Part shown: piece by piece, positions 1-1,278 of the stretch
How the letters are laid out: each line of letters starts with the position of its first letter
Numbering within the stretch: the first letter of the stretch is position 1
Source: an uncultured Nostocoides sp.
GTDB lineage: Bacteria > Actinomycetota > Actinomycetes > Actinomycetales > Dermatophilaceae
Direction: 5' to 3'
DNA: 32,766 bases
NCBI GenBank assembly: GCA_937907685.1
Contig: CALCXF010000136.1
Location: 1-32,766, forward strand
Program-made: the position numbers and the translations under genes
The notes under the pieces: model-generated
The model's input: the letters and a program-made list of their open reading frames with translations, nothing else
Told to the model about the DNA's origin: nothing
Databases searched by the model: none

Positions 1-463
1 GGCGGGTGTTGATGTGCCCGGCGAGGATGGAGGCGCCGGGGAAGCCGGGCTTAGGCCAGCCGCGCTCGTCGTACCACCCGGCGACGCCGGGCGGAGGGGC
101 CAGGATCCCGTGCGTGTCGAGGCCGGTGGGGACCAGCGCGGCGTTGACGAGCTTGTCACCGCGGGCGCTCATCACGACCACCCGCGTCGGCTCACCATTC
201 GGGCGGCCGTGCGCGGGCCGCGCGGTCGGCGGCCTCAAGGCGGGTGCAGTGGGCCGTGGCAGGGCGCGGCTCGGCGTCGGTTGGGGGGTCGCCACGCTGT
301 GGCGTGGTGCGGCCGTCGGGGTGTCCGTAGCGGTTGGTGTGGGCGTGGTCGGCACTGGCGCCGTCGGGGCCTGATGCGCGCAGGCTCCGAGGAGGGCGAG
401 CACCAGCGCACCCCCAGCCAGAGCAGCGCGACGGTCCACGGGCCACCAGACCCGGCGACTCAT
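1..463 (-). CDS. Class F sortase, partial (C-terminus outside window)
   Basis: Transpeptidase predicted to join secreted proteins to an envelope acceptor on the outside of the membrane. The visible 154 residues start at ATG 463. A short arginine-containing N-terminus leads into a hydrophobic segment (about 13-27) that ends in a lipobox-like LGAC (Cys28). A Pro/Thr/Ala-rich linker follows to about residue 85, then the start of the sortase beta-barrel. The segment ILAGHINTR (His150) matches the catalytic-histidine motif of sortases, and the region before it (GWYDERGWPKPGFPG) is typical of actinobacterial class F enzymes. The catalytic Cys and Arg would lie beyond base 1 and cannot be checked. 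It starts 26 bases after the stop of an anchored surface protein that is its likely substrate, so the two are probably co-transcribed. Family assignment is good; the lipoprotein nature is inference. Confidence 0.82.
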   Translation of the reverse strand, partial: MSRRVWWPVDRRAALAGGALVLALLGACAHQAPTAPVPTTPTPTATDTPTAAPRHSVATPQPTPSRALPRPTAPALRPPTARPAHGRPNGEPTRVVVMSARGDKLVNAALVPTGLDTHGILAPPPGVAGWYDERGWPKPGFPGASILAGHINTR

Positions 464-489
464 GGCGTCACCGGCGCCGACCCGACACC

Positions 490-1278
490 TCAGTGGCGTC
501 GCGAGGACGACCGCTGAGCACGCCGAAGCCCCACAGCCGTGGCGAGCAGGACCAGGGCGCCGGCACCGAGCACCGGTGCCCCGGCGGCCCTGTCATCACC
601 CTGCGCGGCGTCGGTCTGGACCAGCACGGGGCGCACCGGGGCGGCTGTGGTCACGGTCACCGTCGGTACGGGCACCGCGGTGGCCTGCCGGGCCTGGAAG
701 GTGTCGACGACCACCTCGTCGTCGGACCCGCAGAACATCCATGCAACCGGTTCCTCTTCTCCGGTCTCGACCCAGAAGGCGAACCCGGACATCAGGATCC
801 TGTGGGCGCCCGCGTCCTGCACCCGGTACGACTCCGCGTCACCCTCGAGCAGCTCCACCGTGAGTGGGCCCTCGGCCGGCACCGCGACGGGACCCCACGG
901 GAAGGCTGCGTACAGCTCACCCTCACCCCCGTCGACGAACAGGAACGCCTCCCCGCCGCCTTCCAGGGAGGTCAAGCCGGCGTCCCGCAGCATCGTGACA
1001 AAGGCTTCAGGGAAAGTGACGGTGCCGGTGAACGGGTTCAGCGTCACCTGGTCGCCGACGTCGACCACCAGGCCATCGGGGACAGCGGTGTCGAACGACG
1101 CCGTGGCGGTGCCCGAACCCTCCTCGCCCGGGCCTTCAGGGTCACCGACGCCGAACTCGCAGGAGTACTCCACCGGCCCCGAGTCGGCGCTGGCGCTCGT
1201 CGCGGTCAACGCGACGAGCCCGAGGGCCAGCGCTGCGACCAGCATGGAGCGGGTGGATGGACGAGCAGTGGTGTTCAT
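490..1278 (-). CDS. Secreted, C-terminally anchored surface protein (DUF6801-like), putative sortase substrate
   Basis: The protein has 262 residues. An N-terminal signal peptide (hydrophobic 12-30) has a likely cut after the ASA at 29-31. A globular, acidic domain follows (about 35-193) with two cysteines, Cys40 and Cys183, that could form a disulfide. The pattern of a YSC start, a TAVPDGLVVDVGDQVTL stretch and a late CGS resembles the actinobacterial DUF6801 family, recalled from memory and not searched. A Val/Thr/Pro linker (about 197-218) leads to LVQTD (219-223), a transmembrane segment (about 234-251) and an Arg-rich tail, which is the layout of a cell-wall sorting signal. LVQTD matches LPxTG only at Leu and Thr. 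The ATG at 1278 is preceded by GGAG at suitable spacing. The sortase gene follows 26 bases downstream on the same strand. The function of the globular domain is unknown. Confidence 0.78.
   Translation of the reverse strand: MNTTARPSTRSMLVAALALGLVALTATSASADSGPVEYSCEFGVGDPEGPGEEGSGTATASFDTAVPDGLVVDVGDQVTLNPFTGTVTFPEAFVTMLRDAGLTSLEGGGEAFLFVDGGEGELYAAFPWGPVAVPAEGPLTVELLEGDAESYRVQDAGAHRILMSGFAFWVETGEEEPVAWMFCGSDDEVVVDTFQARQATAVPVPTVTVTTAAPVRPVLVQTDAAQGDDRAAGAPVLGAGALVLLATAVGLRRAQRSSSRRH

Follow-up and report, generated by a model that had tools for sequence, protein, structure and literature searches.

A predicted VQTD sorting signal conserved on surface proteins near a clade of class F-like sortases

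The window, a stretch of 32,766 nucleotides, comes from contig 136 of a draft genome of 3.0 Mb and starts at the contig end; it encodes a surface protein and an adjoining sortase. Judged from sequence comparison, VQTD in the tail of this protein is a conserved sorting signal. It is highly probable that the adjoining enzyme reads the signal, most likely cuts it between Thr and Asp, and transfers the protein to the cell wall. That unrelated surface proteins of related bacteria bear this signal too points to a possible new recognition code in a branch of sortases that is poorly understood. By their placement in the tree, the enzymes of this branch, here called TC-D for the Asp that follows the Cys, are one clade beside class F, nearly all of it in the window's family, Dermatophilaceae in GTDB.

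All features of the pair are on the minus strand. The gene of the putative sortase substrate (490..1278, 262 aa) is an open reading frame whose relatives have the same tail beside a sortase. It begins with a signal peptide, read by eye on the translation (residues 1-31, 1186..1278), that ends in ATSASA before D32, and a DUF6801-like beta domain follows (residues 38-169, 772..1167). The sorting signal P-V-R-P-V-L-V-Q-T-D occupies residues 214-223 (610..639), with LVQTD at 610-624, and a spacer of 12 residues leads to the hydrophobic helix found by a hydropathy scan (residues 236-251, 526..573) and the basic tail RRAQRSSSRRH (493..525). Conserved motif, hydrophobic helix and basic C-terminus, the layout of a sorting signal, are all present in this tail, PVRPVLVQTDAAQGDDRAAGAPVLGAGALVLLATAVGLRRAQRSSSRRH. 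A 26-base gap (464..489) separates the substrate stop from the sortase ATG. The sequence-only reading had placed LVQTD at residues 219-223, with a helix, an Arg tail and 26 bases to the sortase frame, and each of these was found again when the window was re-read.

The sortase gene (2..463) is class F-like by the model NF033748 and covers the N-terminal 154 aa, ending ...ASILAGHINTR with the presumed catalytic His. Its reading frame is cut by the contig end, running off the contig start, and the catalytic half is absent; the catalytic Cys and the beta7-beta8 loop are unreadable because only these 154 residues exist. The rest of the gene was not found elsewhere in its own genome, where other sortases of the same type were found only on contigs 32 and 84. 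These two further TC-D sortases (L002 and L003) have neighbours with GPVVETD. Another locus of this genome, L001, presumably encodes a class E sortase, which it resembles by eye.

Against DUF6801 (PF20611) the window protein scored 24.0 bits, under the gathering cut-off of 26, and the domain was found in two of ten scanned TC-D neighbours (L066, 91.6 bits; L073, 81.2 bits). The beta domain was assigned from this score and from an AF2 model (pLDDT 90.9), whose best PDB match is 3lso_A (Z 12.3, 4.7 Å over 168 residues), a putative membrane-anchored protein of Corynebacterium diphtheriae. This likeness of a modelled fold says nothing firm about the function of the substrate.

The signal is conserved in close relatives. 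At two loci of the same family, L005 and L007, a similar protein is followed at once by a sortase, and the tails are PVRPDVVQTDAAQ and PVRPVVVQTDAAQ, respectively. The L005 sortase, to which the window fragment is 72% identical over 53 columns, had matches with E no higher than 1e-15 in 83 of the 186 genomes of the family. For the close set we read 30 loci from this search and 40 further regions. The neighbours of sortases with a CDP...GNW signature were picked blind to the motif, and 31 of the 34 unique sortases have a neighbour with a signal-like end: VQTD in 26 cases, VQTG in two, and VRTD, VHTD and VNTG in one each. Aligning 29 of the 31 tails (two were too short) with the window protein gave 30 rows, in which the P6 Pro, P3 Val and P1 Thr columns reach a pairwise identity of 1.00, P9 Pro has 0.87, and P2 Gln and P1' Asp have 0.81; the flank columns have a mean of 0.12 and a maximum of 0.20. 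P1' is Asp in 27 of these tails and Gly in three. Written in full, the VQTD-type signal is P-x-x-P-x-[VLT]-V-Q-T-D. Where bearers have a species name, they belong to Janibacter, Knoellia or Phycicoccus, and NCBI taxonomy puts Janibacter and Phycicoccus in Intrasporangiaceae. An LPXTG reading of the window tail was rejected: all 30 rows have Val at P3 and no LPXTG occurs in the tail. The known signals of classes A-E, in which P3 is Pro or Ala and P1' is Gly, Asn or Ala, are not matched by L-V-Q-T-D either.

VQTD tails are also found on proteins encoded away from the sortase. A profile of the tail, run over the 186 family genomes, gave matches at E 0.01 or better in 91; the most in one genome was seven, in G202, of the genus holding most named Janibacter. 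Twenty places, chosen among the tail matches covering the motif, were fetched. All 20 read P-x-[VLKI]-V-[QH]-T-D, and 19 are away from the sortase; one is at a contig end. Pfam domains were found in five of ten scanned bearers (5'-nucleotidase, M28 peptidase, GDSL lipase, DUF11 and Big_8), and six of ten Gly-type neighbours have CHRD, DUF4397 or ice-binding domains. With thresholds set after seeing the tables, a strong tail (E 1e-6 or better) occurs in 30 genomes, 28 of which carry the VQTD-type sortase, compared with 11 of the 156 genomes without a strong tail. As to the two exceptions, G048 carries a different TC-D sortase, at L103, whose neighbour ends in VQTD, and the tail match of G212 is at a contig end. 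The sequence-only reading mentioned that dedicated sortase/substrate pairs are known. In the relatives, a one-to-one pair was rejected because VQTD tails are also on unlinked proteins.

In the genomes compared, the tail of the 5'-nucleotidase matches the type of sortase present. Relatives of this enzyme were found in 100 of the 186 genomes, and 50 of the listed places were read. Twenty-one end in a signal (V[VI]ETD in 10, VVTD in three, and LVQTD, IITD, KV[ED]TD and VETG in two each), one further relative has VIETD without a helix, and 28 of the 50, that of the window's own genome included, are without such a tail. The prediction set beforehand was that VETD genomes carry a VETD-type sortase (TCDD...GHRxANF) and that the LVQTD genomes G202 and G199 do not. 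It was not fully blind: G023 and G112 were already known to carry this sortase, G076 to have a second sortase of the TC-D type, and G094 to have a match beside the gene. A model search of 32 genomes found the VETD-type sortase in 10 of 10 genomes with a V[VI]ETD nucleotidase, in neither of the two LVQTD genomes, and in none of the nine genomes with other tails, which are outside the scope of the prediction. In these 32 genomes no score falls between 126 and 157 bits, and the 157-bit threshold was set after seeing the tables. Three of the ten VETD genomes belong to genus g21, in which the gene is beside the sortase, and two of them fed the model; without this genus the counts are 7/7 against 0/11, and in these seven, enzyme and substrate are encoded on separate contigs or at a distance of over 280 kb.

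At the eleven loci L319 to L329, no signal-bearing neighbour was found in the surrounding stretch examined. G117 and G077 have the VETD-type sortase and a nucleotidase frame that, as read, is without a helix. The nucleotidases of G022 and G027 end in VETG, and the sortase neighbour there likewise ends in TG. As a separate observation, some nucleotidase relatives of genus g39 (L267, L268, L269 and L272) end, as read, without helix or signal, and L267, L268 and L272 end in RPGKGN-like repeats.

The window fragment scored 30.1 bits (E 3.3e-7, residues 88-153) against the class F model NF033748, its best NCBIfam model, whose curated cut-off is 166 bits. The nine longer TC-D sortases scored 55.7-84.5 bits, all under this cut-off, and one TC-G-G sortase scored 193.3 bits, above it; class F was the top-scoring class model for all ten proteins and the window fragment. 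PF04203 (cut-off 26.6) matched nine of nine TC-D relatives at 38.2-63.0 bits and gave no match on the window fragment, which is without the catalytic half. Searching the PDB by sequence with one TC-D and one TC-G-G sortase turned up sortases only weakly (E 0.6-0.9). Modelled with AF2, the L110 sortase (pLDDT 83.5) has a sortase fold, with Z 14.7 to 7s57 (2.8 Å, 131 residues) and 13.3 to 5uus. Calling the window enzyme a class F sortase is right as to the best class model, but its score is far under the cut-off, the enzyme is fragmentary, and its clade lies beside class F.

Each of 177 sortases has either Gly at Cys+2 (98, nine of them with Asp at Cys+1) or Asp at Cys+1 without Gly at Cys+2 (79); these are the TC-x-G and TC-D groups, and the contrast between them at Cys+1 and Cys+2 is by construction because those columns define both groups. 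In model numbering, residue 139 is Trp in 1.00 of the 79 TC-D sortases and Tyr in 0.97 of the 98 TC-x-G sortases, and Lys129 is present in 1.00 and 0.76 of them, respectively. Asn at model residue 167, by alignment the catalytic Arg position, is common to both groups (0.99 of 79 and 1.00 of 98). By conservation only, the Cys+1 Asp, Lys129 and His163 are candidates for the residues that read the signal's Asp.

The wider set adds samples of genomes from the class and the order. Each unique sortase was paired, again blind to the motif, with the closest protein on its strand that has a helix and a basic tail. From 232 sortase frames, 19 without a Cys signature or cut short were dropped (the window's own and L003 among them) and 35 were identical, leaving 178 unique sortases. 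A neighbour was found for 134; the other 44 had none with a signal-like end in the surrounding stretch examined. One class-E-like row was later removed. Motif-blind EM on the 134 neighbours returned P-x-G-[GV]-V-[QED]-T-[GD], with a log-likelihood ratio of 706 versus 108-122 for five letter-shuffled sets given the same number of starts. The sequence-only reading had expected homologues to keep [LV]xxTD near the helix, and a conserved V-x-T-[G/D] was indeed found, at a median of 10-11 residues before it. The neighbours of ordinary class F sortases mostly read P-x-G-G-V-x-T-G, some with Ala or Ser for Thr. Both proposed departures of LVQTD from LPxTG, Val for Pro and Asp for Gly, were borne out, but Val at P3 is frequent beside class F sortases in general, which leaves Asp for Gly as the one departure peculiar to the TC-D branch.

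We counted P1' over 130 distinct neighbours, with three that are shared by two sortases counted once each. It is Gly in 75 of the 75 neighbours of TC-x-G sortases, and Asp in 49 and Gly in six of the 55 neighbours of TC-D-(not G) sortases. Nine TC-D rows had Gly at first: L089 was dropped, since the motif is missing from its partner frame; L165 and L173 have the reading TC-D-G and were placed in the ordinary class F clade, so they are out of TC-D-(not G). The Gly motif is a poor fit at four loci (L015, L163, L194 and L195). Because the EM model includes the P1' column, the letter after the helix-nearest V-x-T was re-read unconditionally. It is Asp in 46, Gly in six and another letter in three TC-D neighbours, and Gly in 51, another letter in four and Asp in none of the TC-x-G neighbours, 20 of which are without V-x-T. 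Gly or Asp thus follows V-x-T in 103 of 110, and the remaining seven sites are outside the motif. A 7-wide EM meant to exclude P1' failed as a test, as its register shifted and took the P1' column in. Counted by genus, leaving out one batch of loci, TC-x-G with Gly occurs in 36, TC-D with Asp in 17 and TC-D with Gly in six. The genomes counted are related, so these counts are not independent. Both sortase types were fetched from seven of 156 genomes, a count that is not systematic.

In a tree of 131 representatives and the window fragment, with the Cys+1 and Cys+2 columns kept in, TC-D and TC-x-G form two branches, each supported by an SH-aLRT of 99, and the window fragment groups with the VQTD sortases inside the TC-D clade. 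The P1' state requires five parsimony changes (shuffled mean 27.8, none of 500 as low), and the sortase type changed once on the tree, so the match between P1' and sortase type is best read as one old event with reversals. Independent co-evolution of the Cys+1 Asp with the P1' Asp finds no support in this single type change. When a TC-D profile was run over 396 genomes of the order, all of the matches listed at 144 bits or more were in the window's family, and the next scored 115. L224 (G788), from another family of the order, has a TC-D sortase that groups with the clade; a signal-bearing neighbour was not found there.

The signals given for classes A-E are LPXTG, NPXTN, LPXTA and LAXTG in the accessible part of PMC5148588. 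TC-D enzymes resemble class F in their best class model, in the His and Cys, and in Asn for the catalytic Arg, a replacement reported for actinobacterial class F generally in the available sections of PMC6998099. Their substrates resemble class F neighbours in mostly having Val at P3 and Thr at P1, a helix and a basic tail. Unlike class F, TC-D sortases score 55.7-84.5 against the cut-off of 166, have Asp rather than x-Gly after the Cys, and carry Trp for Tyr at model residue 139; P1' in their neighbours is mostly Asp, and the signal is P-x-x-P-x-[VLT]-V-Q-T-D, not P-x-G-G-V-x-T-G. The Cutibacterium acnes class F enzyme, a relative with reported activity, is said in the introduction of PMC13257024 to recognise LPXTG, whereas here Val replaces Pro at P3 and Asp replaces Gly. 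Class E SrtE1 of Streptomyces coelicolor (LAXTG) is likewise actinobacterial with a non-Pro P3, but Leu at P4 and Gly at P1' are retained in its signal, as is the catalytic Arg in the enzyme, according to the same portion of PMC5148588. In class A sortases with relaxed P1', changes in the beta7-beta8 loop alter P1' selectivity; the signal is the canonical LPXTG, and the accessible text of PMC8361268 describes no clade-wide fixed Asp at P1'. The complete set of four class F sortases in Actinoplanes missouriensis was the subject of a 2026 study that, in its available sections, calls the physiological roles of class F unknown (PMC13251363). The proteins beside srtF1 and srtF4 there have a signal peptide, helix and basic tail, and both were set aside as having no known pentapeptide (PMC13251363, same sections). 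In the open PubMed Central literature we found no paper naming such a class F motif, and searches for sortase with VQTD and sortase with VETD returned 0 papers each.

The reading we prefer is that the protein would be exported and stay in the membrane through the helix and Arg tail at its C-terminus. The neighbouring TC-D-clade sortase would read P-x-x-P-x-[VLT]-V-Q-T-D, probably contacting the Asp and Gln, and would most likely cut between Thr and Asp, with the acyl-Thr staying on the Cys until it is passed to a cell-wall precursor. Because the Asp would leave with the helix, it would matter only for recognition, and it perhaps keeps these proteins from the Gly-type class F enzymes. The peptide PVRPDVVQTDAA is of the VQTD type and is predicted to be cut by a TC-D sortase.

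Alternatively, the Asp might merely be tolerated, the sortase reading P...V-x-T and taking Gly or Asp, with Asp a matter of drift in the clade. The six TG ends among 55 distinct TC-D neighbours are in line with this, and the five P1' changes by parsimony are compatible with one origin and reversals. We consider it unlikely, however, given how consistently Gly or Asp follows V-x-T within the motif, given the 75 of 75 Gly in TC-x-G neighbours (at positions from a model that includes that column), and given that in G022 and G027 an unlinked nucleotidase has the Gly as well. It is less likely still that the sortase cuts the signal and hydrolyses the acyl intermediate, so that the protein is shed instead of anchored. 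Asn at the catalytic Arg position and the unknown physiological roles noted in the available sections of PMC13251363 would suit shedding, but that Asn is general in actinobacterial class F (PMC6998099, in the part cited above), and several substrates look like wall-anchored ectoenzymes. We give very little credence to an ordinary tail-anchored membrane protein, whose motif would serve, say, a protease other than a sortase or the binding of a helper: such a protein would presumably be anchored by helix and Arg tail alone, and Thr-Asp cleavage belongs to the conjectural part of our reading, but the motif tracks the sortase type between genomes, unlinked substrates included, and occurs on unrelated ectoenzymes.

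Beyond the preferred reading of sorting by the adjoining enzyme, we lean slightly towards several parallel sortase lanes per cell, addressed by P2 and P1' (VQTD, VETD, [VI][VI]TD, KVETD and GGVxTG), each with its own enzyme type. If so, each lane would have, at least for VQTD, several unlinked substrates; P2, a position left free in LPXTG, would belong to the address, and through the P1' Asp the TC-D set would be kept apart from class F enzymes of the Gly type in the same cell. Two candidate signals are ready for peptide assays, V-[QE]-T-D for the TC-D clade and P-x-G-G-V-x-T-G for the neighbours of ordinary class F sortases. These motifs should make many actinobacterial surface proteins findable, and TC-D sortases may offer a new specificity for protein ligation.

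Several minor observations concern the loci themselves. No VQTD-type sortase was found in G001-G003, of the same genus as the window, and G003 had only a weaker match; therefore the pair may have been gained or lost. A small secreted protein encoded at 1876-2286 on the minus strand adjoins the pair and has no Pfam or NCBIfam match. By eye, the N-terminus of the window sortase, ...ALLGAC, is lipobox-like, and the enzyme could be a lipoprotein; L005 has a plain membrane segment there. At L019 (G008), an ice-binding-like protein with the ordinary class F signal VRTG adjoins a class F sortase. At L079, L082, L084, L091 and L209, two TC-D sortases are near a single substrate gene, which they flank at L079 and L082.
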